Below, piece by piece: positions 1,804-29,114 of a DNA stretch of 33,250 bases (within the stretch, counting starts at the first letter, position 1; the number at the start of each line of letters is the position of its first letter). The notes beneath the pieces are model-generated. The model did no database searches and had not been told where the DNA came from. It was given only the letters and a program-made list of their open reading frames with translations. The position numbers were made by a program, and so were the translations under genes. The DNA is taken from assembly GCA_018716385.1 (NCBI GenBank), contig DVJZ01000043.1, forward strand, positions 1 through 33,250, in the 5' to 3' direction. The DNA is from Candidatus Enterenecus merdae. GTDB lineage: Bacteria; Bacillota; Clostridia; Oscillospirales; Oscillospiraceae.

Positions 1804-4020
1804 TCACGCCCGGTCCCGGCGCTCCAGCAGCTCCAGCAACAGCCGCTCGTTTTCCCGGGCGGACTGGGCCAGCTGCTCGGACCGGTCCCGCAGCCGGGCC
1901 AGGGTCGCGTCATAGTCAGCCATGAGCCGGTCCACACAGTCCGCCGCTGCCGAGCCGTCAAAGTCCTCCACATGCCCCGCCGCAGGCATCCCAAGCTCCC
2001 GCAGGTAGCTGTCCACCTTGGGGTCGTACACCAGGCCGACACAGGGCACTGCCATGCGTGCGGCGAAGATCAGCGTGTGCAGGCGCATGGCCAGGCACAG
2101 CTTGGCCTGCCCCAGCACCGCCATGAGCTCCTGAGGGACGCAGGGGGTGTCCAGCAGCCAGGAGGGTTCCCGCATGGCTTGGCGCACCGCCTGGGCGGCG
2201 GGCCGGTCCCGGTCAGGCTGCATCAGCAGGAAGAGCACCTCCAGCCCATGGGCCCGGCGCAAATGGTCGCACACCCCGGCCAGGGCCTGGGAGAATCCCT
2301 CCACCCCCGGCCAGGCCCGCACCGACACCGCCGCGAAGGCCCGGTCCGTAGGCAGTCCGGCCTGGGCCAACAGCTCCCGACCCCGCTGGGCCGGGGCAGG
2401 GGCCAGATTGAACACCGGGTCGGCGGTGACGTACAGGTCCTCCCGCTTCACTCCCATGGCGCGCAGCTCCTGCTGGGAGCTGCGATCCCGCAGGGTGACC
2501 AGGGCCGCCCGCTCCACCGCCCGCTTGACCCGGCGGCGGTTGCCCGGCTTGCGCAGCGGGCCGATGCCGTTGGCGTAGAGCACCACCGGCCGGCCCAGCA
2601 GCCGGGCCGCGCCCATGACGGTCAGGTAGTACATCAGGGAACGGGTGGAGGTCCTGTCCTGGAGCAGGCTGCCCCCACCGGACAGCAGCACGTCGCAGCG
2701 GCGCAGGGCCTGGAACACCCGCCAGGCCCGGAACCGGGGCTCCGCCTGCACCTGGCACATCCGCTGGGTGAGGCCAGGGGCGTTTGACAGCACCGTGATG
2801 TCCACCTGGTCACTGGCCGCGGCAATGCCCTGGCAGATGGACTGCAGAATGGCGTCGTCCCCGGCGTTGGAGAAGCCGTAGTAGCCGCTCATCACCACCC
2901 GGTAACGCCGTTGGCGCACCTTCTCGTACACCTCCAGGCAATCTTGGGCCATCCGATGCACCGAGTACTGCTTCAAAATCACCTGGCGGCCATACGCCCC
3001 CAGCTGCTCGCGCCGCGCCGGCTCTAACGCCAGGGCCGCGCGCACCTCGTCCAGTAGCCGCTGGGGGGTGGGCAGGGGAAAGCCCCGGCAGCAGAAGTTG
3101 CCCGCCTGGGCGGGAGCCAGCTGCTCCGGGGTAAATAGGCCCTGGCAGCCCTCGTTGCCCGCCAGAATCACCGGCTTGGCCGCCGCCATGGCCTCCAGCG
3201 CGGCCCGGGACACCCCCACAAACAGGTCCCCTGCGGCCACGATCCGGTTGATGTCCGCACGGGGCCCGGTCAGCACCACGCAGGGCCGCCCCAGCGCCCG
3301 GTTTACCTGGTCAGCCTGGGCCTGGAGCTCCTCCAGCAGCTCGCCGCCCCCCACCAGCACCAGCTGGACGCCGGGGACGGCCCGGTCCAGTTCCGGAGCC
3401 AGCTCCACCAGCTGGCCGGCCACCAGGGCCCGATCCTGGTCCATCCGGCTCACATGGCAGAGCACCGGCCGGTCCGGGTTCAGCCCCAGCTCGGCCAGCA
3501 CCCCGTCCCGGGGCAGGTCGGGGGAGAACTTCTGGGTGTCGATGCCGTTGACGGTGACGCTGATGCGCCCCTCAGGCAGGTTGTACTCCTGGATCAGGTA
3601 TTCCTTGATGTCCTGGGACACGGCGATGGTGCGCTGGCCCCAATTGGTGAGGTAGCGCACCAGGCCACGGTTCTCAAAAACCCAATGGGCCGTGGTAACA
3701 AAGGGAAAGCGCAGTCTCCGCCACAGGGTGGCGCACAGGAAAGCGGGAATGCGGGCGTGGGCGTGGACCACGTCGGGCTGTTCCTGGCGCAGCACCTTCC
3801 GGAGCAGCGACCGGGCCCGGAGCATACACCGCAGGTCCCGGCGGTGCATGGGCACGCAGTAGTGGCGGATGCCCGCAGCCTCGATCTCGGGCACGTAGAT
3901 CCCCCCGTTGGAGGCGATGGCCACGTCGTGCCCCTGAGCCCGCAGCTGCTTGGACAGCTCCACGATATGGGTCTCCGCCCCGCCGATGTCCAGCCCCATG
4001 GTCGCCATCAGGATGCGCAT
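1804..4020 (-). CDS. Fusion protein: GT4 glycosyltransferase + CsaB-like polysaccharide pyruvyl transferase
   Basis: 738 residues with two enzyme modules. Residues 1-~365 form a GT-B (GT4) glycosyltransferase: it starts with MGLDIGGAETHIVELS, and has VVHAHARIPA, TVNGIDTQKFSP and CHVSRMDQDR. Residues ~373-738 match CsaB/polysaccharide pyruvyl transferases: GYYGFSNAGDDAIL, LLSGGGSLLQD, YANGIGPL, the MRLHTLIFAARM block holding the conserved Arg and His, and a late VYDPKVDSYLRELG. CsaB adds ketal pyruvate from PEP to secondary wall polymer, making the ligand for SLH domains. The GT half lacks the first Glu of the usual EX7E motif (a Val sits there; VGVSRAALEAM is seen). It is the last gene of the operon, 13 nt after the DUF4330 gene. 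Start ATG at 4020 behind GGGGTGGGG. Substrates are inferred from family only. Confidence 0.9.
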   Translation of the reverse strand: MRILMATMGLDIGGAETHIVELSKQLRAQGHDVAIASNGGIYVPEIEAAGIRHYCVPMHRRDLRCMLRARSLLRKVLRQEQPDVVHAHARIPAFLCATLWRRLRFPFVTTAHWVFENRGLVRYLTNWGQRTIAVSQDIKEYLIQEYNLPEGRISVTVNGIDTQKFSPDLPRDGVLAELGLNPDRPVLCHVSRMDQDRALVAGQLVELAPELDRAVPGVQLVLVGGGELLEELQAQADQVNRALGRPCVVLTGPRADINRIVAAGDLFVGVSRAALEAMAAAKPVILAGNEGCQGLFTPEQLAPAQAGNFCCRGFPLPTPQRLLDEVRAALALEPARREQLGAYGRQVILKQYSVHRMAQDCLEVYEKVRQRRYRVVMSGYYGFSNAGDDAILQSICQGIAAASDQVDITVLSNAPGLTQRMCQVQAEPRFRAWRVFQALRRCDVLLSGGGSLLQDRTSTRSLMYYLTVMGAARLLGRPVVLYANGIGPLRKPGNRRRVKRAVERAALVTLRDRSSQQELRAMGVKREDLYVTADPVFNLAPAPAQRGRELLAQAGLPTDRAFAAVSVRAWPGVEGFSQALAGVCDHLRRAHGLEVLFLLMQPDRDRPAAQAVRQAMREPSWLLDTPCVPQELMAVLGQAKLCLAMRLHTLIFAARMAVPCVGLVYDPKVDSYLRELGMPAAGHVEDFDGSAAADCVDRLMADYDATLARLRDRSEQLAQSARENERLLLELLERRDRA

Positions 4021-4033
4021 GGCCCCACCCCGC

Positions 4034-4552
4034 TTACTGCTCCGGATCCCCTTGGGGGATCTGGATGTTCATCACCCGGCCCACAAAGCTGGCATACTTG
4101 GTGGTGAAGGTGCGGTTGCTGTTCACCCCCAGGGCATACACCCGGTTGAGCAGCACCGTCCCATCTGATTCCACCAGGGCCTGGCCCTCGATGGTCAGCA
4201 GCAGGTCGTAGTAGCCCTGGGCGGGCACCATGGCCACTGTGCCGTCGTCCAGAGAGGCCTGGTTGGTGCCGTCGCTGACCTGGATCTCGGTGATCTCGCC
4301 CAGGGAGCCCCCGGTGCTCCGGGCCGGGTCAAACAACTGATCCCCCACCTGGATGGCCTCCAGCATCTCCTGGGGCTGGTTTTGCAGCCGCATCTGGTAG
4401 ACCACCGGCACGGTGGACACCGTGCCCCCCGTCTGGGGCATCTGGTTTTTGAGGTAGACGGCGGCCACCAGTACCGCGGCCACCACCAGCACGATTACAT
4501 CGAGGATGCTGATCTTGCCAAACAGGCGGCCGTCCCGATCTATCAGCTTCAT
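4034..4552 (-). CDS. DUF4330 domain-containing membrane-anchored protein (copy 2)
   Basis: 172 residues. A short cytoplasmic start, MKLIDRDGRLFGKISILD, precedes one membrane helix (about residues 18-38). An extracytoplasmic domain rich in beta-prone stretches follows, with the QVGDQLFD and ITEIQV pattern near its start. The MKLID-GRLFGKI opening and layout are typical of DUF4330, a family of unknown function I associate with Clostridia wall-polysaccharide clusters. Its ATG overlaps the stop of the previous DUF4330 gene (ATGA), behind a good GGGAGGGG site, so the two are translationally coupled. I infer a scaffold or modulator of surface polymer assembly; no catalytic motif is visible. Confidence 0.75.
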   Translation of the reverse strand: MKLIDRDGRLFGKISILDVIVLVVAAVLVAAVYLKNQMPQTGGTVSTVPVVYQMRLQNQPQEMLEAIQVGDQLFDPARSTGGSLGEITEIQVSDGTNQASLDDGTVAMVPAQGYYDLLLTIEGQALVESDGTVLLNRVYALGVNSNRTFTTKYASFVGRVMNIQIPQGDPEQ

Positions 4553-5052
4553 GCCTGCCCCTCCCTTACGATCTGCGTCACCCGGCCGCTGCCCATGTAC
4601 CCGGGACCCCGGGCGGTGATGGCCTGGCCCACCCGGAAGTCATAGCCGCCGTCCAAGAGCAGCGCGTCCTCCTGCTGGGTACAGGTACTCTCCACGGTGA
4701 TATACACGTCTTCGTACCCCTCCAGCTGGGCCTGCACATAGCGCCGGTTCTCCTGGTCCAGCACCTGGACCAGGGCCGGCTCGGCCTGGACGGACACCAC
4801 GGTGCCCAGCCGATGATTCTCCACCGTCTCCTCCAGCTGGTCTCCCGGCTGGATCAGCTCGCTGTCCCCCTGGGCCATGCGCTGGATCAGGATGGTGTAG
4901 CGCACTGTGCCGGCGGCGCTCTCCTGCCCGCTCCCGCCGTCTGACCGCAGCCCAAACCACACCAAGGCTCCCCCCACCACGAGCACCAGCACCAGAATGA
5001 GCGCGTCAAATAGGTTCAGCCGCAGGCGGAATTTTGGATTACTCTGTTCCAT
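4549..5052 (-). CDS. DUF4330-like membrane-anchored protein (copy 1)
   Basis: 167 residues with the same plan as its downstream neighbour. A short N-terminus (KFRLRLNLFDALI) leads into one membrane helix (about residues 15-36), then an extracytoplasmic domain containing IQPGDQLEETVENHRLGTVVSV and VGQAITARGPGY. The shared GDQL element and size suggest the two genes arose by duplication, although identity is low by eye. Start ATG 5052 behind AAAGGAG; it overlaps the 3' end of the glycosyltransferase gene by 14 nt. Function unknown. Membership of DUF4330 is less clear than for copy 2, because the GRLFGKI opening is changed. Confidence 0.65.
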   Translation of the reverse strand: MEQSNPKFRLRLNLFDALILVLVLVVGGALVWFGLRSDGGSGQESAAGTVRYTILIQRMAQGDSELIQPGDQLEETVENHRLGTVVSVQAEPALVQVLDQENRRYVQAQLEGYEDVYITVESTCTQQEDALLLDGGYDFRVGQAITARGPGYMGSGRVTQIVREGQA

Positions 5053-6169
5053 GGTTGTCTCCTTTCAGCACGTCCAGGTATACCTGCTCCACGTTCCGGG
5101 CAAAGCCCTGGCCGGTGAAGCGGGCCAAAAATTGCTCCCGGGCCTGCCGGCCCAGCTGGGCCCGGGTGTCCGGCTGATCCATCAGCCGGGCGATGGCGCC
5201 GGCCAGCGCCCCGCTGTCCCGGCTGGGGAAAATCAGCCCCGACACCCCGTCCTCCACGATCCACGGGTTGCCCCCGTAGTTGCTGGCAATCGTGGGCAGG
5301 CCCAGGCTCATCCCCTCCAGCAGGGCCAGACTGGTGGCCTCGGTGCCGTAGGAGGCGTTGAGCTGCACGTCCAGCAGGGACAGCGCCGGGGCCACGTCGT
5401 CCTGGAACCCCAGAAAGAACACGGTGTCCTCCAGCCCCATCTGGGCCGCCTGGGCCCGCAGCCGGGCCTCCTCGCTGCCCGTGCCGGCCACCAGGATCTG
5501 AAGGCGGCGGCCCTCCCCCTTCAGCTGCCGGGCCGCCTCCAGGATGTGCTGGTGACCCTTATAGGGCTCCAGGCGGGCCAGGATGCCGGCGGTAAACACC
5601 CCTTCCGACAGCCCGTACTCCTCCCGCAGCGCCCGGCACGCTTCCGGGCCGCTGCGCGCCACCGGGGCCACCCCGTTGAGGATGACCTGGATGCGCCCCG
5701 CCGGCACCCCCGCGTCCACGAGGTTCTCCGCCGCGGCGGGGCTGACCGCGATGATCCGGTCGGCATAGCGCAGGTTCACCCACCGGTTGAGCCACCGCCC
5801 CGGGGGATAGCGCAGCTTGGCGCTCACAGGAAAGACCGAGTGGCGGGTGTACACCACCTTCTTCCCGCACCGCCGGGCGGCGATACGCCCGGACAGCGCG
5901 CCGTGGGTGTGCACCAGGTCGGGCCCCTCCCGACGGATCAGATCCACCAATGTCTGCATGTCCTGCCGGTGGTAGGACCGCTCGGCCAGCCCCTCCACCG
6001 GCAGCACCCGGGCACCTGCCTGCTCCAGGGGAGCGGCCAGGGCGCTGCCCGCCGGCACAGCCACCCAGGTCTCAAAGCGGTCCCGGTCGGCGTAGCGCAG
6101 GTAGTTGAGGATCACCCGGCCCGCGCCGCCGATGTTGCTGTCGCTGATGATGTTGAGCACCCGGATCAC
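5039..6169 (-). CDS. Glycosyltransferase family 4 (GT-B fold)
   Basis: 376 residues, a complete GT4 enzyme of the cytoplasmic face that transfers a sugar from a nucleotide donor to a lipid-linked or saccharide acceptor. The N-terminal Rossmann domain starts NIISDSNIGGAGRVILN, followed by DLVHTHGALSGR, VVYTRHS and RIIAVSPAAAENLV. The C-terminal domain has ILARLEPYKGHQHILEAA, LVAGTGSEE and an intact EX7E motif in TEATSLALLEGMSLGLP. The start is GTG at 6169, overlapping the stop of the upstream gene (GTGA) and preceded by GGGAGGTGA. Position between an O-antigen ligase-like gene and a GT4-CsaB fusion argues for wall polymer synthesis. Donor and acceptor are not predictable here. Confidence 0.9.
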   Translation of the reverse strand: MIRVLNIISDSNIGGAGRVILNYLRYADRDRFETWVAVPAGSALAAPLEQAGARVLPVEGLAERSYHRQDMQTLVDLIRREGPDLVHTHGALSGRIAARRCGKKVVYTRHSVFPVSAKLRYPPGRWLNRWVNLRYADRIIAVSPAAAENLVDAGVPAGRIQVILNGVAPVARSGPEACRALREEYGLSEGVFTAGILARLEPYKGHQHILEAARQLKGEGRRLQILVAGTGSEEARLRAQAAQMGLEDTVFFLGFQDDVAPALSLLDVQLNASYGTEATSLALLEGMSLGLPTIASNYGGNPWIVEDGVSGLIFPSRDSGALAGAIARLMDQPDTRAQLGRQAREQFLARFTGQGFARNVEQVYLDVLKGDNHGTE

Positions 6170-7617
6170 AGCCTCACCTCCCGCTCGGGCAGCTGGTCCC
6201 GCCGGGCCAGCAGCGCCCCCAGGGCCACAAAGACCCAGAACAGCAGCATGACCCGGTAGTTATAAAAGGAGTAGTCGGTCATGGCCTGGACCAGGAAGCC
6301 TGACATGCCGGCCAGCACCGCCGCCTGGTGCAGCCGGCTGAAGGCGTCCCGCGTGCGGCTGAAGGCGGCGCACAGGTCCCGGAAGAAGTGGAACAGCAGC
6401 AGCAGGAAGACCGCCAGGGCGGCCATGCCCGCGTCGCATACGATCTGTAGGAACAGGTTGTGGGAGTGGGGGGCCACGATCTCATTGTAGCTGTACCGGG
6501 GATAGACCAGGTTGAAGGCCGCCTCCCCCGGCCCCACGCCGCACAGCCAGTAGTCCCGGAGCATGTCCAGCGTCCCCAGCCAGATGGACAGCCGGTAGGA
6601 GGTGGAGGTGTCCTCCAGGTTGCCGATGCTGGCAAAGCGGGCGATCACCGTGTCGGGCATCAGGAAGTACAGGGCCACCAGCATCACCGGTACCAACAAC
6701 AGCAGCCGGGGCTGCAGCAACAGCACGAACACCAGCCCCGCGCACAACAGCCCCAGCCAGGCCCCCCGGGACAGGGTGAGCAGCATGCAAAGGCACATCA
6801 CCCCGCAGGCGCACAGGTAGGCCACCCGCCGGCCCCAGCCCTTGGCCGACAGCAGCCCTGCCCCCCCCAGGGGGATGATCAGGATCAGGTACTGGCCCAG
6901 CATATTGGGATTGCCCAGGGTGGAGGGCACCCGGAAGCTGATGTCCTGGAACATCTCGGTATCCACCCAGGCCTGGGACTGGTAGCCCCAGCCAAACAGG
7001 TACTGGCACACCCCATACAGCGCTACCACCGTCCCCGCCGCCACCAGCACCAACACTAGGCCGTCCAGCTGCCTGCGGCTGTTCACGGCGTTTTCCAGTA
7101 CGATGGCAAACAGCAGGAAAGCTACCGTCAGCAGCCCCACCGGCAGGCTGCCCGACGGGTTGACGGAGAACAGGGTGGCAACCAGATAGACGGCGGCATA
7201 CAGCCAGATATACCGGTTGAAAGAGGCGTGGCGCAATTCCAGTTCCCGCCGCTGCACCAGCCGCAGCAGCAGGGACAGGGCGCTGACCAGCACCAGGGCC
7301 AGCACCGCCATGGTGGGCAGGATGGGGGCCAGCGCCGCCGCGGCCAGAGCCCACAGCCAGGTTTGCTGGAAGACACTGCCCTCCAGCAGTCGGTTCAGGC
7401 GCAGGACCTCATAGATCCGGCACAACAGCCGGTGCAGCGCCCGCCACAACCGGGCAAATACGCTGTGCTCCGACTCCGCCCGCTCCCGCTGGGCGGGCGG
7501 GTGGAGGAACCACTGCGCCAGCCCGCTGCTGCGCCATTGCTCCCCACACCACAGGGACAGGGCCGCCAGAAGCCGGTATAGGACGCTGGCCTGTAAAATC
7601 CGCCGGATATGCTGCAT
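6166..7617 (-). CDS. O-antigen ligase/polymerase family (Wzy_C/WaaL-like) membrane protein
   Basis: 483 residues. About 85 N-terminal residues are mostly soluble and basic; then come roughly ten to twelve hydrophobic helices. The family signature is in the second half: a large outside loop with STLGNPNMLGQYL and VGPGEAAFNL, then VAPHSHNLFLQIVCDAGM, the His-rich element typical of O-antigen ligases and Wzy polymerases. These integral membrane enzymes join undecaprenyl-linked glycans outside the membrane. In this Gram-positive setting I infer polymerisation or transfer of the secondary wall polymer. ATG 7617 lies behind AAGGAGG, 3 nt after the murJ stop. The long N-terminal extension before the first helix is unusual for the family. 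Confidence 0.88.
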   Translation of the reverse strand: MQHIRRILQASVLYRLLAALSLWCGEQWRSSGLAQWFLHPPAQRERAESEHSVFARLWRALHRLLCRIYEVLRLNRLLEGSVFQQTWLWALAAAALAPILPTMAVLALVLVSALSLLLRLVQRRELELRHASFNRYIWLYAAVYLVATLFSVNPSGSLPVGLLTVAFLLFAIVLENAVNSRRQLDGLVLVLVAAGTVVALYGVCQYLFGWGYQSQAWVDTEMFQDISFRVPSTLGNPNMLGQYLILIIPLGGAGLLSAKGWGRRVAYLCACGVMCLCMLLTLSRGAWLGLLCAGLVFVLLLQPRLLLLVPVMLVALYFLMPDTVIARFASIGNLEDTSTSYRLSIWLGTLDMLRDYWLCGVGPGEAAFNLVYPRYSYNEIVAPHSHNLFLQIVCDAGMAALAVFLLLLFHFFRDLCAAFSRTRDAFSRLHQAAVLAGMSGFLVQAMTDYSFYNYRVMLLFWVFVALGALLARRDQLPEREVRL

Positions 7618-7620
7618 CGC

Positions 7621-9189
7621 TCAATCCTCCTTCCCCGTGCGCCGGGCCAGCTTGCGCCAGACCAGCTTCATCTCGTCCAGCCGGAGCAGCCCGGCCAGCA
7701 GAAAGTAGGCCACAGCCCCCGCTCCAGCACAGGCGGCCAGCAACAGCGCCTCCCCCAGCTTGTCCGCCGGCAGGAGCCCGGCCAGCCCCCGCCGGGCCAG
7801 CCAGACCACCCCAGCCATCCCCGCCGCGCACAATAGCATCTTGCCAAAGTCCAGGGCCAGGCCCCGGTTGACCACTCCCTCCCCCCGAACCTGCAGGGGG
7901 ATGAGCAGCAGCAGCGCGTAGAGGGTGGAGGAGACGGTGGAGGAGATGGCCAGCCCCGCCACCCCCAGGGGCTGGGTGAGGAACATACACAGCACCAGGT
8001 TTGCCAGGATGGACACCCCTCCCGCCACCAGCGGGGCCCGTCCCTCCTGCCGGGCGAAGTAGGCCCGGCTGAGGATGTTTTGCAGCGCGTACCCCACCAT
8101 TCCCAGGGACACCCACACCAGAGCCTGGGAGGTGATGTCCACCGAGAAAGCGTCAAAGGCCCCGCCGCCGTACAGGAAGGACACCAGGGGCCGGGCCAGC
8201 AGCATCAGCCCCGCCGCCATTGGCAGCACGAAGAACAGGCTGCTGTGCACCGTCTGGCGCAGGGTGTCCTGAAAGTCCTGCTGCCGGCGCTGAGCGGTCA
8301 GCCGGGAGAGTTTTGGGAAGATCACGTTGGTGATGGACAGGATGAACACCCCGGCGATGACCAGATACAGATTGGTGGCGTACTCCATGGCAGACACCCC
8401 CGCCCCCCCGTACAGGTGAGAGCCAAAGCGGCTGTTGATGGTCAGGTTGATGGGCTGCACCCAGGTGGACACCATCACCGGCCCCATCAGGGCAAAGGCC
8501 TGCCGGATCCCCTCTGAGCGCAGGGAGAAGTCGGGGTGGTAGCGAAAGCCGGTCCGGTGCAGGGAGGGCACCTGCACCAGCGCCTGGAGCAGCCAGCCCA
8601 CCAGGTAGGCCACCGCCAGGCCATACACCCCGTAATCCTCGTCCAGCAGGTAGAAGTAGCCGATGATGACCAGGTTGGACACCACGCTGATCAGCGCCGG
8701 GACGTGGAAGCGGTCCATGGCCTGGAGGATGCCCACAAAGGAGAAGGCCACCCCGGTGAGCAGCACGGTGGGGAACATCACCCGGGTGAGGGAGGCGGCC
8801 AGGGCGGCGGTCTGATCGTCGTACCCGTCGGCAAACAGGGCCACCAGCGGCTCGGCCAGCAGGATGCCCAGCAAGGTGAGGACGGCGGTGAGCAGACCCA
8901 TTACTGACAGGAAGTTGCCCCCGAACCGGAAGGCCGCCTGCCGCCCCTTTTGGGTCATGGTCTGGCTGAAGACCGGGATAAAGCAGGCCGCGATGGCCGA
9001 GGAGAACACCACGTCGAAAAAAACCCGGGGGATCCGGCTGGCGGTGTAGAAGGCCATGGCCTCCATACCGGTGGTGCCGTAGTGGACGGCCATCAGCCGG
9101 TCCCGGAACAGCCCCAGCGCCTTGCCCAGCAGGGTGATGAGCATCACAGCGCTGATGGTTCGGGTGGCGTGATCGCTTTGCCTGGCCAA
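7621..9189 (-). CDS. murJ: MurJ/MviN-family lipid-linked glycan flippase
   Basis: 522 residues, a MOP-superfamily flippase with about 14 membrane helices. Landmarks are ISAVMLITLLGKALGLFRDR at the N-terminus (Arg residues as in MurJ), FSSAIAACFIPVFS, ILQAMDRFHVPAL, and FPKLSRLTAQ. MurJ moves lipid II across the membrane; as first gene of a polysaccharide operon it may instead, or also, flip the wall polymer intermediate. Start: the TTG at 9189 is chosen because AGGAGG sits 7 nt upstream (9197-9202) and gives the usual family N-terminus. An upstream in-frame TTG at 9261 would add 24 low-complexity residues and lies at the transcription start, so it is rejected. Own promoter at 9270-9298. Confidence 0.92.
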   Translation of the reverse strand: MARQSDHATRTISAVMLITLLGKALGLFRDRLMAVHYGTTGMEAMAFYTASRIPRVFFDVVFSSAIAACFIPVFSQTMTQKGRQAAFRFGGNFLSVMGLLTAVLTLLGILLAEPLVALFADGYDDQTAALAASLTRVMFPTVLLTGVAFSFVGILQAMDRFHVPALISVVSNLVIIGYFYLLDEDYGVYGLAVAYLVGWLLQALVQVPSLHRTGFRYHPDFSLRSEGIRQAFALMGPVMVSTWVQPINLTINSRFGSHLYGGAGVSAMEYATNLYLVIAGVFILSITNVIFPKLSRLTAQRRQQDFQDTLRQTVHSSLFFVLPMAAGLMLLARPLVSFLYGGGAFDAFSVDITSQALVWVSLGMVGYALQNILSRAYFARQEGRAPLVAGGVSILANLVLCMFLTQPLGVAGLAISSTVSSTLYALLLLIPLQVRGEGVVNRGLALDFGKMLLCAAGMAGVVWLARRGLAGLLPADKLGEALLLAACAGAGAVAYFLLAGLLRLDEMKLVWRKLARRTGKED

Positions 9190-9204
9190 CCCGTTCCCTC
9201 CTCT

Positions 9205-9247
9205 CCCGCCCCCGGATCGGGGGCCTTTCCGGGCTTGCGCAGCCCGG
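9205..9247 (-). promoter_or_regulatory. Structured leader of the murJ operon (two hairpins)
   Basis: The ~74-nt untranslated leader holds two hairpins: GGGCT/AGCCC (9231-9245, 5-nt loop) and GCCCCC/GGGGGC (9208-9224, 5-nt loop). The second ends a few bases before the ribosome binding site of murJ. Neither is followed by a U run, so they look more like mRNA-stabilising or translation-tuning elements than terminators. The role is inference. Confidence 0.45.
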
Positions 9248-9269
9248 CCACATCGGTTCAATGGACAGT

Positions 9270-9298
9270 ATTGTACACCAACCCCCGCCCTTTTTCAA
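9270..9298 (-). promoter_or_regulatory. Sigma-A promoter of the murJ-csaB operon
   Basis: On the minus strand there is TTGAAA (9298-9293), a 17-bp spacer, and TACAAT (9275-9270). Each hexamer is one base off consensus. Predicted start is near 9263, about 74 nt before the murJ TTG codon. No other promoter is seen before any of the five downstream genes, which all overlap or lie within 13 nt of each other. Confidence 0.85.
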
Positions 9299-9384
9299 CC
9301 ATCCTCCGGGAGATTCACGGCTTGTTCACACTTTCCACGGCCCTTGGCTGTCCTACCCAGCCGGTCTCAGCGGGCAAGGACGCA
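9299..9384. other. Divergent intergenic core between murJ and the SLH protein gene
   Basis: This is the middle of the 310-nt gap between the two divergent start codons. It lies between the two outward-facing promoters (9270-9298 minus, 9385-9413 plus), whose -35 elements are 86 nt apart. No open reading frame with a ribosome binding site and no clear inverted repeat was found. A shared regulator could bind here, but no site is evident. Confidence 0.5.
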
Positions 9385-9413
9385 TTGAACTTTGGTCGAT
9401 TTTATGCTATTAT
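9385..9413 (+). promoter_or_regulatory. Sigma-A promoter of the SLH/phosphodiester glycosidase gene
   Basis: TTGAAC (9385-9390), a 17-bp spacer and TATTAT (9408-9413). This predicts a start near 9420 and a leader of about 80 nt before the ATG at 9500. The surrounding stretch is clearly more A/T-rich than the coding DNA around it. Confidence 0.85.
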
Positions 9414-9499
9414 TATCCTATCTGCCCGAATTTTGGCTCCCCCGGAGCCCTAAACACCCCGGACGAGACAATTCCACGGATGATGAAAAGGAGCGTGCC

Positions 9500-12292
9500 A
9501 TGAACCGCAACACCTTCCCCCGCCTGGCCCGGCGCCTGACCGCTCTGGTCCTGGCCGCGGCGCTGCTGATCCCAGCCGCCTTCGCCACCGCCGGCGACAC
9601 CCGGCTCACCACCACTCAGGCCCTCACCAACCAGCTGACTTACCGCAACACGATCTCTGAACACTCCTCTGCCGGCCGGATGGAGAGTTTCTCCCTGGAG
9701 CTGGAGCCGGGGGGCTCGGTCTATCCCATCGCGGTCCAAGCCAGTGGCCGCATCTACGGCTCGGGCACCATCACCCAGGCCATCCAGGTGGCCGAGTCCA
9801 TGGGCTACCACGTGGTGGGGGGAATCAACGGCGACTTTTATACCCTCAGCACCGGCATCCCCAACGGCATCTCCATTGAGGACGGGGTCTACCGCTCCAG
9901 CGCCGATGGCTACGCCGCCTTGACCGTGGTAGACGGGCAGCTACAGTTGTGTCAATCCCCCCAGGTTACCCTCACCCTCACCAACCAGCGCAGCGGGCAC
10001 ACCGCCTCCCCCGATCACTTCAACAAATACCGGGACCACGACGGAGGCCTCTATCTCTTCAATTCCGACTTCTCCTCTACCGCACATACCTCGGGCCGGG
10101 GCGGCTGGGTGGTGGTGCTGGAACCGACAGGGGAAAGCCTGGGCCAAGCGCTCACCGTCAACTCCACCCTGACCCTGGAGGTGGTGTACACCACCGACAC
10201 CTCGGCAGAGGTGGAGATCGGAGCCAACCAGTACATCCTGACCGCCGACCACGCCTCCTCCACCGTGGCGTTTTTTGACAACTATCAGGTTGGAGATCAA
10301 ATCACCCTGACCGCCTCTTGCTCCGAACCTGTCCTCTCCCAGGCCCAATGGGCCATGGGCTGCGGCGATATCATCGTATCCGGCGGTTCAATTACCGACA
10401 GTTCCAACTGGGTTTACGCCACGGGTCGGGCTCCCCGCACCAGCGTGGGGGTCAAGGCGGACGGCACCATGGTGTTCTACACCGTGGACGGCCGGCAAAG
10501 CGGCTACTCCGGCGGGCTGACCGAGCTGGACCTGGCCCAGGAGATGCAGCGCCAGGGCTGCGTGTGGGCGGTCAACCTGGACGGGGGCGGCTCCACCACC
10601 TTTGCCGTCCAGCTGCCCGGCCAGAGCAGCCCCACCGTGGCCAACTCCCCCTCGGACGGGGGGCTGCGGGCCTGCGCGTCGTTCCTCTTGCTGGTGACCG
10701 ATCCCTCCGCCGCCGACGGGGCCGCCCGGCAGCTGGCCCTCCAGGAGGACGGACTGGTGGTGCTTGCCGGCTCCAGCGTCACCCTGGGCAACGTGGTCAG
10801 CGTGGACGGCGGCCTGGAACCCGTCCACAGCCGGGTGGCCGACGCCACCTTTGTCTCAGAGGGAGGGCTGGGCAGCTTTGACGGCGGGGTGTATACCGCC
10901 GGCTCCAACCCGGGGACGGACACCATCTCCATCACCTCTGAGTCCCTGGGTCTGTCGGGCACCGCCCAGATCCATGTGGTCAGCTCCCTCAGCCAGCTGA
11001 ACGTCACCCAGGCTGGTAGCAACACTCCCCTGTCCTCCCTGAAGGTAGCGTCAGGCCAGAGCGTGGCGCTGAGCGCCACGGGCTCCTACTGGTCCCGCAC
11101 CGCCCTGCGCGCCGGCTCCGGCGGGGTGAGCTGGTCGGTGAGCGACGGGGCAGGCTCCATCACCCAGAACGGGGTGTTCACCGCCTCGGCCGGCGCGCAG
11201 CCCGGCGTCATCACCGTCTCGGCCGGCGGGCTCACCCGCACCATCCCCGTCAACCAGACCCAGTACGCCCACACCGACGTCACCCCGGATCACTGGTCCT
11301 ATACCGCTGTGGTGTTCTGCTACCAGCAGGGCATCGTCAACGGCATCAGCGACACCCTGTTCGGCCGGGACGACCCCATCCGGCGGCGGGACTTTGTGGT
11401 CATGCTCTACAATGCCCTGGGCCAGCCCCAGGCCTCTGGGTCCTCCGGCTTTGCCGATGTGGAGGCCGGGTCCTACTATGAGGGCCCGGTCACCTGGGCC
11501 AGCCGTGCAGGGCTGGTACTGGGTATCTCCGACACCCTCTTTGCCCCGGGCGATCCCATCACCCGGGAGCAGGCCGCCGTCATCCTGCACCGGGCCCTGC
11601 CCCTGCTGGGGCTGGACGCCCCGGAGCCCGACCTGTCCGTCCTGGACCAGTTTGCCGACCAGGCCCAGATCTCCGGCTATGCCAGACAGTCGTTGACCGT
11701 GCTGGTCTCCCTGGGCATTCTCAATGGCACCGGCGAGGGAATCAACCCCCAGGGGATCCTGACCCGGGCGGAGATGGCCGCGCTGCTCTACCGCCTGCTG
11801 GGGGAGCGAGGCAACACCCCCGACACCCCTCAGCTGGGCCCTGACGCCACCCTGACCCTCTCGCCCACCTCGGGGACACTGGAGCCCTCCCAGTCTCTGA
11901 ACCTCACCGCCACCCTCACCGGCGGCACGGGGGAGATCACCTGGACGTCCAGCAACCCGGACGTGGCGGTGGTCTCCGGCCAAGGCGTGGTCACCAACGT
12001 GTACTTGGGTACGGGTTCCCCGTCGGTGACCATCACCGCCCACTGCGGGCCGCTGAGCGCCAGCGCGGTGTTCCAATGCGCCCCTGCCCAGCAAGTGGGA
12101 CTGGTCACCGCCAGCCCCAGCCTGAACGTCCGCTCCGGCCCGGGCACGGGCTACTCGGTGATCGCCAGCCTGTCCACCGGGGCCCAGGTGGCCGTACTGG
12201 CTGAGCAGGACGGCTGGTACCGGGTGCTGTTCTCCAGCGGCTCGGCCGCCGTCACCGGCTGGGTGTCGGCCAGCTATGTCACCCTGTCCTGA
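9500..12292 (+). CDS. Secreted phosphodiester glycosidase-like protein with SLH, Ig-like and SH3b domains
   Basis: 930 residues. Residues 1-~32 are a signal peptide (basic RRLTALVLAAALLIPAAFA). Residues ~50-405 match the NAGPA/phosphodiester glycosidase family (removes GlcNAc alpha-1-phosphodiester caps in the known member): GINGDFY at 108-114, APRTSVGV from 311, NLDGGGSTTF from 359, then RACASFLLLV. An Ig-like stretch follows (~410-590). Three SLH repeats come next (~592-640, 650-705, 715-770) with ITREQ and LTRAE motifs; the first repeat has a degenerate IRRRDF. A BIG2-like domain (~780-860) and an SH3b domain (~867-930, LNVRSGPGTGYSVIA) end the protein. SLH repeats bind pyruvylated wall polymer, matching the divergent csaB-type operon. 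ATG 9500 is chosen over an upstream in-frame start because AAAGGAG precedes it by 7 nt and the signal peptide starts there. Confidence 0.88.
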   Translation: MNRNTFPRLARRLTALVLAAALLIPAAFATAGDTRLTTTQALTNQLTYRNTISEHSSAGRMESFSLELEPGGSVYPIAVQASGRIYGSGTITQAIQVAESMGYHVVGGINGDFYTLSTGIPNGISIEDGVYRSSADGYAALTVVDGQLQLCQSPQVTLTLTNQRSGHTASPDHFNKYRDHDGGLYLFNSDFSSTAHTSGRGGWVVVLEPTGESLGQALTVNSTLTLEVVYTTDTSAEVEIGANQYILTADHASSTVAFFDNYQVGDQITLTASCSEPVLSQAQWAMGCGDIIVSGGSITDSSNWVYATGRAPRTSVGVKADGTMVFYTVDGRQSGYSGGLTELDLAQEMQRQGCVWAVNLDGGGSTTFAVQLPGQSSPTVANSPSDGGLRACASFLLLVTDPSAADGAARQLALQEDGLVVLAGSSVTLGNVVSVDGGLEPVHSRVADATFVSEGGLGSFDGGVYTAGSNPGTDTISITSESLGLSGTAQIHVVSSLSQLNVTQAGSNTPLSSLKVASGQSVALSATGSYWSRTALRAGSGGVSWSVSDGAGSITQNGVFTASAGAQPGVITVSAGGLTRTIPVNQTQYAHTDVTPDHWSYTAVVFCYQQGIVNGISDTLFGRDDPIRRRDFVVMLYNALGQPQASGSSGFADVEAGSYYEGPVTWASRAGLVLGISDTLFAPGDPITREQAAVILHRALPLLGLDAPEPDLSVLDQFADQAQISGYARQSLTVLVSLGILNGTGEGINPQGILTRAEMAALLYRLLGERGNTPDTPQLGPDATLTLSPTSGTLEPSQSLNLTATLTGGTGEITWTSSNPDVAVVSGQGVVTNVYLGTGSPSVTITAHCGPLSASAVFQCAPAQQVGLVTASPSLNVRSGPGTGYSVIASLSTGAQVAVLAEQDGWYRVLFSSGSAAVTGWVSASYVTLS

Positions 12293-12415: not shown

Positions 12416-12492
12416 GAACAGGCAACCTAAAGGGGTTGTCCGCAAGGTCTGCCCCGCCCGATCTACGGGTTGGGAGCAAAGGGGGAGCAAGC

Positions 12493-13431
12493 ATGAGAGA
12501 ACAGGAACTGATCCAGCGCATCCTGGCCGAGGTGCGCAAGGCGGTGCTGGGCAAGGACACGGTGCTGGCCCAGGTACTGCTGGCCATCCTGGCCCGGGGC
12601 CACGTCCTGCTGGAGGACATCCCCGGCGTGGGCAAGACCACCATGGCTCTAGCCTTCTCCCGGGCGCTGGGTCTGCGCTACCAGCGGGTGCAGTTCACCC
12701 CCGACGTCATGCCCTCCGACCTGACCGGCTTTTCCATCTTCAACCAGGAGACAAACGCCTTTGACTACCGTCCCGGCGCGCTGATGTGCAACCTCTTCCT
12801 GGCCGACGAGCTCAACCGGGCCACCAGTCGCACCCAGTCGGCCCTGCTGGAGGCCATGGAGGAGGGGCAGGTAACGGTGGACGGGGTATCCCGTCCCATC
12901 GGCCAGCCCTTCGTGGTGATCGCCACCCAGAACCCGGTGGGGGCTGCGGGCACCCAGCCCCTGCCCGACTCCCAGCTGGACCGCTTCGCCCTGCGCCTGT
13001 CCCTGGGCTATCCCTCCCACCGGTCGGAGGCGGCTATGGTGCGGCAGCGCCAGACGGGAAACCCCCTGGACCGGGTGGAGCAGGTAGCCGACCACGCCCA
13101 GCTGGAACAGCTGCGCCAGGCCGCCGACCAGATCTATGTGTCCGACGATGTACTGGACTACCTGCTGGCCCTGGTGGCCGCCACCCGGCAGCACCCCCTC
13201 ATCCTCCAGGGGGCCAGCCCCCGGGCCACCCTGGCCCTGACCTGCGTCAGCCGGGCGCTGGCCCTGGCCTCGGGTCGGGACTACGTACTGCCTGAGGACG
13301 TACAGGCTGTCTTCCCCCATGTCATCGCCCACCGGCTGGTGCTCTCCCCCAAGGCGGAGGACAGCCAGCCCGCCCGGGATGAGCTGCTGGCCGCCCTGAT
13401 CCGAGGGGTACGGCCCCCTTGTCTGCGGTGA
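12493..13431 (+). CDS. MoxR-family AAA+ ATPase
   Basis: 312 residues, full length for the family. MoxR ATPases act as chaperone-like AAA+ machines that mature or remodel partner proteins, often encoded with DUF58 and transglutaminase proteins as here. Walker A is GVGKTT (residues 45-50), Walker B is FLADELNRA, sensor-1 region is VIATQNPVG, followed by LPDSQLDRFALRLSLGYP and an arginine-containing C-terminal lid (GASPRATLAL). ATG at 12493 is preferred over an upstream in-frame start at 12436, because GGGGGAG lies 6 nt before it and the family begins around this point. The stop overlaps the next gene's start region. The substrate is unknown. Confidence 0.93.
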   Translation: MREQELIQRILAEVRKAVLGKDTVLAQVLLAILARGHVLLEDIPGVGKTTMALAFSRALGLRYQRVQFTPDVMPSDLTGFSIFNQETNAFDYRPGALMCNLFLADELNRATSRTQSALLEAMEEGQVTVDGVSRPIGQPFVVIATQNPVGAAGTQPLPDSQLDRFALRLSLGYPSHRSEAAMVRQRQTGNPLDRVEQVADHAQLEQLRQAADQIYVSDDVLDYLLALVAATRQHPLILQGASPRATLALTCVSRALALASGRDYVLPEDVQAVFPHVIAHRLVLSPKAEDSQPARDELLAALIRGVRPPCLR

Positions 13432-13433
13432 AC

Positions 13434-14417
13434 ATGGCCGGCCGCCGCATCGTCTACGGGGTGGCCCTGCTGGCCGCCCTGGCCTTCCAGATCTTCTATG
13501 ACGGGTATCTGACCCAGTTCCTGCTGGTCTGTCTGCTGGCCCTGCCCGTCCTCTCTTTGCTGCTCAGCCTGCCCATCCTGGCAGGGCTGCGCCTGGCCCT
13601 GGCCCCCTCCGGCCCCCGGCTCGTCCAGGGGCAGGCGGGGCACTGGCGGCTGACCGCCCGCAGCTCCCTTCCCCTGCCCGTCGCCCGGCTGGCTCTGCGC
13701 CTGACCTTCCACAACGCCCTGACCGGCGCCACGGCGGACCAGCGGCTGCAACTTGCCGGCCTGGCCGGCGGCCAGACCCGTCCCCTTCCCCTGGAAGGGG
13801 ACCATTGCGGCGCGCTCACCTGCCGGGTCAGCCGGGCCAGGGCTCTGGACTTCCTGGGCCTATTCTCCCTGCCTATCCATCGGCCAGACCCCGCCCAGGC
13901 CCTGGTGCTGCCCCAGCCCGTTCCCCTGGAGGAACTGCCTGGTCTGGAGCCCCTTCTGGCCCAGGCAGGAGTGGGGGCAGGCTCCGCTCCGGATGAAGAA
14001 GATGAAGAACTGCGGGACTATCGCCCGGGCGATCCCATCCGGGCCATCCATTGGAAGCTCTCCTCCAAATACGACGCGCTGGTGGTGCGGGAGCGGGCCC
14101 GGCGCGGCCGGCCCCGGGTAGCCCTGTCCTTCGACCTGTTCGGCACGCCGGAGCGGCTGGATCGGGTGCTGGCCCGGCTGTGGACCGCCTCCCGCTTCCT
14201 GGTGGGGCGGGGGCTGGCCCATGAGGTCTGCTGGACCGCTCCGGACGGGCAGTCCCGGCGGGAGATTGTGGACAGCCAGAATCAACTGCTGTCCTGCATG
14301 GCCCGCATCCTCTCCCAGCCCGCCCCGGCGGCCCGGCCCCAGCCCTCCGCCCCGCTGCCCCACAGCCCAGGGCTATCCCACCTGCACATCACCGCCGGAG
14401 AGGAGGATGTGCCATGA
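13434..14417 (+). CDS. DUF58 domain-containing membrane protein
   Basis: About 327 residues. Two hydrophobic helices lie at the N-terminus (residues ~6-45), then a beta-rich region. The DUF58 signature follows: LRDYRPGDPIRAIHWKLSSKYDALVVRE, followed by a vWA-like fold (VALSFDLFG). DUF58 proteins are regular partners of MoxR ATPases. The exact start is uncertain. In-frame TTG at 13419 has GAGGGG 10 nt upstream, GTG at 13428 would overlap the moxR stop as GTGA, and ATG at 13434 begins right at the first hydrophobic helix. The annotation uses the ATG. It is coupled to the next gene by a 4-nt ATGA overlap. Confidence 0.9.
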   Translation: MAGRRIVYGVALLAALAFQIFYDGYLTQFLLVCLLALPVLSLLLSLPILAGLRLALAPSGPRLVQGQAGHWRLTARSSLPLPVARLALRLTFHNALTGATADQRLQLAGLAGGQTRPLPLEGDHCGALTCRVSRARALDFLGLFSLPIHRPDPAQALVLPQPVPLEELPGLEPLLAQAGVGAGSAPDEEDEELRDYRPGDPIRAIHWKLSSKYDALVVRERARRGRPRVALSFDLFGTPERLDRVLARLWTASRFLVGRGLAHEVCWTAPDGQSRREIVDSQNQLLSCMARILSQPAPAARPQPSAPLPHSPGLSHLHITAGEEDVP

Positions 14418-16675
14418 CCCAGCCCTTTTCTCCCCGCCGGCAGAGCCGCTGGGGCCTGGCTGTGCTGGCCGACGCTTTGCTGGTGACGGTACTCTTGGCC
14501 GCCCTGGCCCGGTTCTGCCTGACCACCTACCTGCAACCCTTCTACTACGATCTCCTGGCCGTCTCCTTTGCCCCCACCGGCGGGCTGCTGCCCATCCCCC
14601 CGTTGCCCGCCCTGGGGGTGTGCGTGGGAGCCGGATTGACGGCCACGGCGGTGTGGTCGCTGCCCCGGTTTCGCTGGCTGGCGGCGGGGGTGCTGCTGGC
14701 AGCGGCCGGGGGGCTGCTCTACTACCATCGGCTCCTGCTGTCCTGGGGCGCCCTGGCCCTGTGGGAAACCCTGTCCGTCCTGTTCACCGACGCCACCGGC
14801 TTCCCCGGCTACTTCGTTTGGGACACCCTGCTCTCCCCAGCGCTGCGGCAGCTGGCCATCCAGGCCCTGCTGGCCGCAGTGGCGGCGCTGTACGCCCTGA
14901 TCCTGGGCTGGGCGGTGGTCCGGCTGCGCCGCTTTTGGCCCGTCTTTGCCCTCACCCTGCCCTGGCTGATCCCCGCCTTTCTGGCAGAGGTGGAGCTGGA
15001 CTGGTCGGCCCTGATGGCGGTGTGTGCCTGCTGGGCCGCGCTGCTGCTGGCCAGCCTGTCCGCCCGGGCCGGGCGGGACGCTGGGGCCCGGGTGGCCCTG
15101 CTGGCCCTGCCCGCCAGCCTGGCCCTGATCCTGGGGGTATCCCTGGCCTTCCCCCGTCAGGGCTATATCCAGCCCGCCTGGGCGGCGGCGGCCCGGGACG
15201 AGCTGCTGGCCCTGGAGTGGTTCCCCTCGGGCAGCACCCCGGACGGCGGAGATGTCCCCGCCTCCCCCAACGGCGGGGCAGAGGCCCTGGCCGAACCCGA
15301 GGTGGACCTGTCCGCGGCAGGGCCCCGGCGATACACCGGCCGGGCAGTGCTCCAGGTGGAGGCCACCCACGCCGGCCCCATGTACCTGCGGGGCCTGGTC
15401 TATTCCGACTACACCGGGACGGCTTGGACGGGGTTGCAGATCCACACTCTGTCCGGCCAGGCGGCCCAGGCCTCCAGCGGAACGGCCCAGGGCCTGTCCA
15501 CCGCCCGCATCCAATCCCTGTCCGGCACCAGCGCCCTGGCCTACCTCCCCTATCGAACGGTGCAGGTTCAGGACGTCCCCACCGCCCCCAACGCTGCCCT
15601 GGCCCTGCCGGAGGCCGTGGAGGCATACAGTGTGTCCTACCTTCCCCTGGAGGGGGAACCCATCCCGGAAGAGGGGACGGACGGCGCGGCCCTTGAGGGC
15701 GGCCTTTCGCGCTACCTCGAGGTTCCCCAGCAGGCTGCCGCCTTCCTGCGCGCCTGGTATCAGCAGGCCCAGCGGGAGCTGGAGGACAGCGGCGTCCAGC
15801 CCGCCGGTGGGGCCACAGGCCCCTATGCCCGGCAGCTGAACACCTCCGCCCAGATTGCCCAGCTGCTGGCCCGGAACGCCCAATACGACCTGGGCGCTCC
15901 CGCCGTCCCCGAAGGGGAAGACTTCGTATCCCACTTCCTGGGGGAGAGCGGCCGGGGCTACTGCGTCCACTTCGCCAGCGCCGCCGCCCTGTTGCTGCGC
16001 CTGGAGGGCATCCCCGCCCGGTACGTCAGCGGCTACGCGGTGCATATCCCCGGCTCCGGCCAGGCCCAGGTGCTGGACTCCAACGCCCACGCCTGGGTGG
16101 AGATCTATCTGGAGGGCTACGGGTGGTACCCGGTGGAGGCCACCCCCTCCGTCCCCAGCCAGGAGGATCCGGAGCCTCAGCCCTCTGCCACACCCACGCC
16201 CACTCCCGCTCCGTCCACCACTCCCTCCCGTGCCCCGGAGGCAACCCTGGAACCCGACGCAACTCTCCCGCCTCAGCAGACCCCCGGCGAGCAGGTGGAA
16301 ACAGAAGCCGGCACCCCGGTCTGGCTGGCCTGGGCCATCCCTTTGCTGGCTGTGCTGGCCGCTCCCTGGGTACTGTGGGGGCTGCGGCGGCGGGGCTGGC
16401 GGCGGCTGGAGCACCGCCCGGACGCCAACGCCGCCGTGCTGGCCGCCTGGGGCTGGTTCCAACGGCTGGAGCGGTGGGGTGGGCAGGCCAGCCCCATGGC
16501 CCGGGAACTGGCCGGCAAGGCCCGGTTCAGCCAGCACACCCTCACCCCGGAGGAACGGGGGCAGATGCTGGCGGAGCTGGGCGGGGAAATTCTCCGGGTG
16601 CGACGGAGCCTGCCCGCGTGGAAGCGGCTGCCCTTTGCCCTGCTCTTCCCCCTGCCCCACAGCAAGGCGGGGTGA
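14414..16675 (+). CDS. Transglutaminase-like membrane protein (TgpA-type)
   Basis: 753 residues. About six to seven membrane helices fill residues 1-~245. A long extracytoplasmic part holds a transglutaminase/protease-like core: GYCVHFA with the nucleophilic Cys at 517, SNAHAWVEIYL with His at 559, and WYPVEATPS, where Glu 575 sits in the acidic-residue position. A Pro/Thr/Ser-rich linker (~590-635), one more helix (~640-660) and a cytoplasmic tail follow. This is the third member of the MoxR-DUF58-transglutaminase module; the reaction may be peptide crosslinking or proteolysis at the cell surface, not decided by sequence. ATG overlaps the DUF58 stop and follows GGAGAGGAGG. No clear terminator after it. 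Confidence 0.9.
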   Translation: MTQPFSPRRQSRWGLAVLADALLVTVLLAALARFCLTTYLQPFYYDLLAVSFAPTGGLLPIPPLPALGVCVGAGLTATAVWSLPRFRWLAAGVLLAAAGGLLYYHRLLLSWGALALWETLSVLFTDATGFPGYFVWDTLLSPALRQLAIQALLAAVAALYALILGWAVVRLRRFWPVFALTLPWLIPAFLAEVELDWSALMAVCACWAALLLASLSARAGRDAGARVALLALPASLALILGVSLAFPRQGYIQPAWAAAARDELLALEWFPSGSTPDGGDVPASPNGGAEALAEPEVDLSAAGPRRYTGRAVLQVEATHAGPMYLRGLVYSDYTGTAWTGLQIHTLSGQAAQASSGTAQGLSTARIQSLSGTSALAYLPYRTVQVQDVPTAPNAALALPEAVEAYSVSYLPLEGEPIPEEGTDGAALEGGLSRYLEVPQQAAAFLRAWYQQAQRELEDSGVQPAGGATGPYARQLNTSAQIAQLLARNAQYDLGAPAVPEGEDFVSHFLGESGRGYCVHFASAAALLLRLEGIPARYVSGYAVHIPGSGQAQVLDSNAHAWVEIYLEGYGWYPVEATPSVPSQEDPEPQPSATPTPTPAPSTTPSRAPEATLEPDATLPPQQTPGEQVETEAGTPVWLAWAIPLLAVLAAPWVLWGLRRRGWRRLEHRPDANAAVLAAWGWFQRLERWGGQASPMARELAGKARFSQHTLTPEERGQMLAELGGEILRVRRSLPAWKRLPFALLFPLPHSKAG

Positions 16676-21385: not shown

Positions 21386-21667
21386 TTACCGCCAAACGGC
21401 GATGAGCAGCGCGATGAGCAGACCAAAGGCCACCAAGAAGACCGCCGCAATGAGCAGCGCCGCCTTCAGCGCCCCCAGCACATACCAGCGGCGCTCCCGC
21501 CCGGTTATCTCCTCTCCATCCTCCTGCCGGCCCGTTTTCTGCGCCCCCCGGTCCGTACCCGGCCCAGGAGGGCGCCCCGGCATCCACATCCGCTGGGGAA
21601 AGACCCCGCTCATGTCAGCGACGGTGCGCCCGTCGTCATCGTCATAGCCCTTCCGTTTTCTCGCCAT
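21386..21667 (-). CDS. Small membrane protein with a DDDDGRTVADMSG motif, unknown function
   Basis: 93 residues. The N-terminus is basic then acidic (MARKRKGYDDDDGRTVADMS), a Pro/Gly-rich hydrophilic middle follows, and a single strong membrane helix lies at the C-terminus (about residues 67-91), giving a tail-anchored layout. The start codon overlaps the oppF-like stop (TAATG) with no convincing ribosome binding site, so translation is probably coupled to that of the ATPase. I do not recognise a named family, and no enzymatic motif is visible. Being last in the peptide-transporter operon suggests an accessory role, but genes at operon ends are often unrelated. Confidence 0.7.
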   Translation of the reverse strand: MARKRKGYDDDDGRTVADMSGVFPQRMWMPGRPPGPGTDRGAQKTGRQEDGEEITGRERRWYVLGALKAALLIAAVFLVAFGLLIALLIAVWR

Positions 21668-23869: not shown

Positions 23870-23884
23870 ATGCGCGTTGCCTCC

Positions 23885-25438: not shown

Positions 25439-25456
25439 ATCCAGCTCCCCCTTTCC

Positions 25457-26443: not shown

Positions 26444-26516
26444 ATCGAATCCCTCCAAATCAAACCAGGGAGCCCAGTCCCTTTGACCACCCGTGCGCGG
26501 TGGCCCGGCTGTACAC

Positions 26517-26552
26517 CAAGCAGCCGCCCCCGCCCGTGGGAGCGGCCGCTTG
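26517..26552 (-). repeat. Imperfect hairpin in the oppA-oppB gap
   Basis: Arms CAAGC-GCCGC-CCC and GGG-GCGGC-GCTTG with two mismatched positions enclose a short loop. It lies downstream (on the minus-strand transcript) of the much stronger hairpin at 26572-26611 and ~75 nt before oppB. It may contribute to mRNA folding; no U run follows. Confidence 0.4.
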
Positions 26553-26571
26553 CTGCACAGCGGGTCAGACA

Positions 26572-26611: not shown

Positions 26612-26659
26612 CCAGGAAAGCCTGCGCGTCGGTATATGGCCGACTCTTGCCGCGCGGGC

Positions 26660-28942: not shown

Positions 28943-28981
28943 TTGCGTCATATCCTCCTTGCATATGCTTGGAACCCAACG

Positions 28982-29107: not shown

Positions 29108-29114
29108 TTTGTCT

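Follow-up and report, generated by a model that had tools for sequence, protein, structure and literature searches.

A predicted pyruvylated wall-polymer operon and a NAGPA gene paired in Oscillospiraceae-type genomes: a putative make-and-trim locus

Introduction

Paenibacillus alvei and other bacteria with SLH-domain surface proteins make a pyruvylated secondary cell wall polymer (SCWP) through a pathway comprising TagO, TagA, MnaA, CsaB and LCP enzymes. In P. alvei, CsaB acts on a lipid-linked disaccharide, and the site of SCWP polymerisation is described as unclear (PMC6030368). Pyruvylated polymers have repeats without phosphodiesters and have in common a murein linkage unit, ManNAc-beta1,4-GlcNAc-alpha1-P, that is typically attached to C6 of MurNAc by LCP enzymes (PMC7831098). 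Here we describe a locus from the gut bacterium Candidatus Enterenecus merdae (Oscillospiraceae) on contig DVJZ01000043.1, the entire 33,250 bases of which we call the window, from a genome of 1.80 Mb in 50 contigs that is 99% complete. Like P. alvei, this genome has SLH proteins, LCP genes and a CsaB that scores over its family cut-off. In contrast, this CsaB is fused to a GT4 glycosyltransferase and has MurJ, Wzy_C, two DUF4330 proteins and a NAGPA protein as neighbours; neither DUF4330 nor NAGPA appears as a partner in those parts of the P. alvei description that deal with the pathway.

Two further families resemble products of the locus. The mammalian uncovering enzyme NAGPA cuts an alpha-GlcNAc-1-P-6-sugar bond, that of GlcNAc-alpha1-P-6-Man. 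The window's NAGPA protein shares the motifs NGDF, RTSVG, DGR and NLDGGGS with this enzyme and with bacterial DUF2233 proteins (3ohg), but unlike them it is a long wall-bound protein in which an intervening stretch separates the first motif from the others, and it is linked to a wall-polymer operon. Cyanobacterial IctB (TIGR00947) is the closest NCBIfam family to the Wzy_C protein, which nevertheless falls below that family's cut-off of 366 bits. Why IctB has polymerisation and ligation domains is unclear (PMC4594306), and carbon transport by IctB is without definitive proof (PMC9477826).

An earlier reading of this DNA from its letters alone (the original prediction) suggested that the locus could be a self-contained make-anchor-edit system for the cell surface. 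Sequence comparison showed that the conserved operon and a divergent gene for a NAGPA protein with a signal peptide stay side by side in most Oscillospiraceae-type loci and are linked in other arrangements in some other families. Tentatively, we read the locus as a make-and-trim unit for a pyruvylated SCWP, the presumed SLH ligand, in which NAGPA would cut the GlcNAc-alpha1-P-6-MurNAc tether.

Results

The operon reads MurJ–Wzy_C–GT4–DUF4330–DUF4330–GT4/CsaB on the minus strand (9189–1804), and the gene for a NAGPA protein with three SLH domains diverges from it on the plus strand (9500–12292). We scanned genome contigs with a five-sequence Wzy alignment, which returned 442 relatives, and took the best 80 as named loci (numbered L), chosen by Wzy similarity with neighbourhood not a criterion; none of the 80 titles is cyanobacterial. 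Many are labelled Oscillospiraceae, the far end of the set carries Lachnospiraceae, Tyzzerella and Clostridium names, and the closest relative among these best 80 of 442 (L133, labelled uncultured Oscillospiraceae) has a Wzy protein 96% identical to that of the window. One locus, L135, belongs to a cultured relative, Pseudoflavonifractor capillosus An827. The MurJ-Wzy-DUF4330-CsaB order is complete on one strand in 64 of the 80; among the other 16, contig ends cut 14, and L190 and L206 are without MurJ despite room. A NAGPA gene adjoins the operon in 54 of the 80 loci (43 divergent, 11 co-directional), at a distance between open-frame ends of at most 686 nt, and 14 loci are too short to judge. 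Because the gene adjoins the operon in so many loci, the absence from the operon's side that could have spoken against the original prediction is not what Oscillospiraceae-type loci present. The retention of the pair in many relatives points to the enzyme as a partner of the sugar chain. On a FastTree of 150 Wzy proteins the adjacency label changes 14 times, compared to 43.6 times when shuffled, with at least 9 changes forced by starred branches; adjacency is thus largely inherited, yet it has been gained or lost several times.

The conserved element of the pairing is NAGPA, not SLH. Across 81 NAGPA proteins (the window's, 54 from the named loci, that of L062, 20 from the order survey and 5 from the class survey, both described below), D-G-G-G-S is present in all 81, the R of RTSVG and the D of DGR in 99%, and the N of NGDF in all 80 that could be aligned, and the window motifs align with those of 3ohg and NAGPA structures. 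This retention of motifs is consistent with the phosphodiester glycosidase domain that the original prediction assigned to the SLH protein. SLH domains, which that prediction had treated as part of the pairing, vary among operon-linked proteins: the NAGPA proteins of L062, L198, L199, L204 and L205 have no SLH match in Pfam, and our own SLH model also finds none in those of L197, L200, L201, L209, L221, L224, L225, L236 and L242 (L193, cut by a contig end, was left out of this tally). A related C-terminal stretch of about 180-230 residues is found in the proteins of L062, L197-L201, L204, L205, L209, L221, L224, L225, L236 and L242, in the place that SLH occupies in the Oscillospiraceae proteins; neither Pfam nor the PDB sequences gave a convincing match to it. 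Window positions 9500-10810 also match PDB entry 5h3k, Synechocystis Slr0280, a NAGPA relative (E 1e-4). An AlphaFold2 model of the NAGPA-SLH protein made without an alignment reached a pLDDT of 35.

We then surveyed 393 genomes of the class with a Wzy profile (E 1e-20 or better), which matched in 176. In 40 class Wzy loci drawn from 34 families, DUF4330 was in view in 39, MurJ in 30, csaB in 19 and NAGPA in 5 (L221, L224, L225, L236 and L242, from three families), compared to 0.51 NAGPA loci expected from NAGPA counts and genome sizes (P 2e-4). All five fall among the 19 loci with csaB in view (one-sided P 0.018). NAGPA was present in 168 of the 176 Wzy-positive genomes compared to 90 of the 217 Wzy-negative genomes, in counts that ignore kinship, indicating that the partnership extends beyond adjacency. 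It is rather unlikely, in our judgement, that NAGPA is instead an outward-facing depolymerase acting on foreign phosphodiester-linked sugars such as host glycans or neighbours' capsules or teichoic acids, with the adjacency explained by the need of an SLH-anchored enzyme for the operon's polymer and by the clustering of surface genes. The 90 class genomes that have NAGPA without this Wzy agree with such a role, NAGPA domains have been interpreted as depolymerases in prophages (PMC9862828), and NAGPA is found in conflict-associated multidomain proteins of Bacillota (PMC12419801). However, the SLH-less NAGPA proteins need no polymer as an SLH anchor and still adjoin the operon, and the association with Wzy holds without adjacency.

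For the order we surveyed 147 genomes, counting CsaB as present above 150 bits in co-occurrence tables (78 genomes). TIGR03609 matched in 99 genomes (74 over cut-off), NAGPA in 116, DUF4330 in 78 (73 over cut-off) and SLH in 95. The original prediction's coupling of CsaB to SLH proteins was borne out, with at least three SLH matches in 73 of the 78 csaB genomes compared to 7 of the 69 others (73/5/7/62, kinship ignored); the corresponding counts for CsaB and DUF4330 were 63/15/15/54, again ignoring kinship. The GT4-CsaB fusion is the usual form in the order, with frames of at least 730 residues in 71 of the 78 genomes. DUF4330 was found in 14 of the csaB regions taken from 39 of the 78 genomes, some of which are cut by contig ends. 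Two genomes of the window genome's genus, G011 and G105, have no match to TIGR03609 CsaB, NAGPA, DUF4330 or SLH alike.

DUF4330 almost always accompanies the Wzy gene, as seen in the class loci and in 20 DUF4330-centred order loci, where Wzy was present in all 20 and MurJ in 6, with csaB and NAGPA in none of the 20. Among NCBIfam models, TIGR00947 matches the Wzy_C protein of the operon best, over residues 95-466 of 483 at 178 bits, so we call this protein IctB-like only. An AlphaFold2 model of DUF4330 protein 2, built with 49 sequences, has a pLDDT of 87 and contains a single membrane helix together with a beta-rich domain; against solved folds it gave no match at E 0.001 or better (best 0.22). 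Among 14 control genomes DUF4330 occurred in one, Synechococcus elongatus, which also has SLH, and we found no mention of DUF4330 by name in the literature searched. We propose that DUF4330 is a putative partner of the polymerase or ligase at the outer face. In L055 and L186-L188 one long frame stands where the pair of DUF4330 open reading frames would be, as if the pair were fused.

The intergenic region shared by the two units is conserved in its promoters. The gap of the window holds two outward sigma-70-like sites, compared to 0.1 in shuffled sequence. The original prediction of two strong outward promoters therefore stands as to their presence and as to the strength of the minus-strand site (10/12); the plus-strand site, with a TG preceding its second hexamer, is moderate in the window (9/12). 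In the 40 loci scanned out of the 43 divergent ones (three were skipped because overlapping stop-to-stop frames stretched the gap beyond 700 nt), a MurJ-ward site was found in 39, a NAGPA-ward site in 37 and both in 36, compared to 3.4 MurJ-ward and 2.4 NAGPA-ward sites expected from same-length stretches inside the operon, a contrast that is somewhat flattering since coding controls differ in composition from intergenic DNA. The consensus in the relatives' divergent loci is GTTGAAAAA...TGgTGTAnAATA MurJ-ward and CCATTGAAa...CTGnTAtAATG NAGPA-ward. Just upstream of the MurJ-ward -35, many of L152-L177 carry a stretch like ATGTTCACAAAACATTAAGGA that includes an imperfect palindrome (ATGTT..AACAT) with an operator-like look, and L133-L139 carry a different stretch, like GTATGAACAAGCCGTGAATCT, upstream of the same element.

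These promoters bear on whether NAGPA acts in synthesis, trimming either a sugar cap held by a phosphodiester or an intermediate on its lipid carrier, in a maturation step rather than in release, so that a pyruvylated end is uncovered or dead-end GlcNAc-P units are cleared. Mammalian NAGPA is itself a maturation enzyme, and the NAGPA gene is co-directional with the operon, as such a role would lead one to expect, in L192, L194, L195, L197-L201, L204, L205, L209, L236 and L242. However, the separate conserved promoter in divergent loci points to independent control, and the account of pyruvylated polymers in the relevant parts of PMC7831098 describes no phosphodiester-linked cap; we consider a role in synthesis unlikely.

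The window genome has one match to PS_pyruv_trans (PF04230), the operon's CsaB, one each to NAGPA and Wzy_C and two to DUF4330, all at the locus. SLH matches number 40 over 19 reading frames including the window's own; two of the other 18 are 67-residue contig-end pieces, leaving 16. Two LCP ligases (PF03816) lie on contigs C17 and C25, neither of which is the locus contig, supplying the ligase that an SCWP pathway calls for somewhere in the genome. Because about 16 further SLH frames must depend on the sole pyruvyltransferase and the LCP ligases are encoded elsewhere, the description of the locus as self-contained was wrong; with its single-copy pyruvyltransferase, the locus provides the presumed SLH ligand for the whole genome and is not the private system of one SLH protein.

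Features of the locus are collected in Table 1. The six-gene operon and divergent SLH gene had been called and placed correctly, and the distance between the likely starts of MurJ (TTG, 9189) and the SLH protein (ATG, 9500), judged by eye from Shine-Dalgarno-like sequence and the signal peptide, is exactly 310 nt. The SLH protein combines three PF00395 stretches with a signal peptide, also judged by eye. After the NAGPA-SLH gene, a trio of MoxR, DUF58-like and transglutaminase-TgpA genes occupies window positions 12436-16675; MoxR and DUF58 also lie downstream of that gene in L133, L136 and L189. At 22412-29191 the plus strand has two very long frames, of 1030 and 1159 aa, without a Pfam match; the minus strand may hold real genes there, and an oligopeptide ABC ATPase lies at 21667-22830.

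Table 1. Features of the wall-polymer operon and the divergent NAGPA-SLH gene in window coordinates, with profile scores and family cut-offs.
Feature	Position	Strand	Basis
MurJ-family flippase	7621..9189	-	TTG start, ORF open to 9261; TIGR01695 346 bits (cut-off 236), PF03023 299 bits
Wzy_C / O-antigen ligase-type membrane protein, IctB-like, polymerase or ligase	6166..7617	-	PF04932 85 bits (cut-off 32)
GT4 glycosyltransferase	5039..6169	-	PF13439, PF00534 above cut-off
DUF4330 protein 1	4549..5052	-	PF14221 59 bits (cut-off 27.6)
DUF4330 protein 2, one membrane helix and beta-rich domain	4034..4552	-	PF14221 103 bits (cut-off 27.6); AlphaFold2 model
GT4-CsaB fusion, GT4 residues ~1-368, CsaB 374-685	1804..4020	-	TIGR03609 289 bits (cut-off 213)
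Operon promoter, TTGAAA-17-TACAAT	9270..9298	-	sigma-70-like site search
NAGPA-SLH gene promoter, TTGAAC-17-TATTAT, TG before second hexamer	9385..9413	+	sigma-70-like site search
Secreted NAGPA + 3xSLH + Big_2 + SH3_3 protein, 930 residues	9500..12292	+	PF09992 93.5 bits (cut-off 25), family motifs kept; PF00395, Big_2, SH3_3
NAGPA catalytic region	9827..10693	+	NGDF near 9827, intervening stretch, then RTSVG, DGR, NLDGGGS in 10217-10693
Three SLH domains	11273..11779	+	PF00395 at 11273-11395, 11450-11578, 11651-11779

Discussion

The operon genes probably make a sugar chain that bears surface proteins, and the surface enzyme of the neighbouring gene probably cuts such chains. By analogy with known pathways, the GT4 enzymes would build a repeat on undecaprenyl-PP, CsaB would add pyruvate at the lipid stage, and the MurJ-type protein would flip the polymer repeat. 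The Wzy_C protein would then polymerise or transfer the polymer, with DUF4330, a protein of one membrane helix, as its partner on the outer face. LCP enzymes, whose genes lie outside the locus, would join the polymer via GlcNAc-alpha1-P to C6 of MurNAc. Held by its SLH domains on the polymer, the NAGPA protein may hydrolyse the GlcNAc-alpha1-P-6-MurNAc phosphodiester, and cleavage of this tether would release or thin the polymer together with bound proteins. The tether is the one sugar-1-phosphodiester expected in the polymer, because the repeats lack phosphodiesters and the linkage unit is GlcNAc-alpha1-P, and it is of the bond type that the uncovering enzyme cuts; our inference is that NAGPA would trim the polymer or release it. 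The editing role of the original prediction would thereby be sharpened to cutting the tether.

Several points weigh against a make-and-trim unit. An enzyme that cuts the tether of its own anchor would release itself. The genome has three PF03023 matches, of which the strongest is in the operon (about 300 bits, with 53 and 28 bits elsewhere), so the operon's MurJ might flip lipid II instead. In 12 of the 80 named loci (L149, L169, L175, L182, L183, L186-L188, L190, L203, L208 and L211) NAGPA is absent although the contig leaves 3.5 kb or more for it, and the 54 adjacent loci are mostly one clade; for L188, whose Wzy is identical to that of L055 of genome G058, a NAGPA-SLH protein lies on another contig, in locus L108. 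Among the class loci, L224 and L225 are sister rows, and counting four events gives P 0.002. Eight of the 176 Wzy-positive class genomes have no NAGPA, and the co-occurrence counts take no account of kinship. NAGPA is also common in class genomes without this Wzy and is present in E. coli as well as B. subtilis, so this family serves other functions too. Lastly, NAGPA is found in 1 of 39 order csaB loci (L062), and 20 NAGPA-centred order loci, several cut by contig ends, have csaB, Wzy, DUF4330 and MurJ in none.

In the wider order, then, the operon and NAGPA genes are mostly apart, and on the order sample alone the pairing looks accidental. The expectation that the two units stay together holds in most Oscillospiraceae-type loci with room and fails in most of these order loci. 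The view that the NAGPA-SLH gene is unlinked to the operon came from this order survey; the scan of named loci and the class survey changed it where Oscillospiraceae-type loci and some of the class are concerned, and the order result stands. An ordinary neighbourhood, in which the SLH protein is one of many clients and adjacency is an order inherited in one family with no special function, draws on this rarity, on the clustering of adjacency on the tree and on the 18 other SLH-bearing frames of the genome, of which two are tiny and lie at contig ends. We nonetheless judge it improbable, as adjacency recurs in other lineages, in the opposite orientation and with SLH-less NAGPA proteins, the starred branches force at least nine changes, and co-occurrence persists without adjacency. 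The original prediction is thus partly supported: the make-and-modify pairing is real, is conserved among Oscillospiraceae-type genomes and recurs elsewhere, but it is not self-contained, and the proposed target of its enzyme is specific but putative.

To our knowledge, no turnover enzyme has been described for the SLH wall ligand. None appeared among the top-ranked literature matches, nor did any paper there link NAGPA to CsaB or SCWP loci. It is a doubtful but specific proposal that NAGPA is a dedicated SCWP release enzyme, which docks by SLH and cuts the LCP-made tether as a counterpart of mammalian uncovering, and that DUF4330 is a conserved partner of an IctB-like polymerase. Polymerisation and export of the wall ligand of SLH proteins are partly open questions, and the locus ties bacterial NAGPA, DUF4330 and an IctB-like Wzy to one polymer and points to a specific bond. 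It also bears on the puzzle of IctB, a protein with polymerisation and ligation domains whose role in carbon transport is without definitive proof: if the proposal is true, cyanobacterial IctB would be recast as a wall-polymer polymerase or ligase rather than a bicarbonate carrier.
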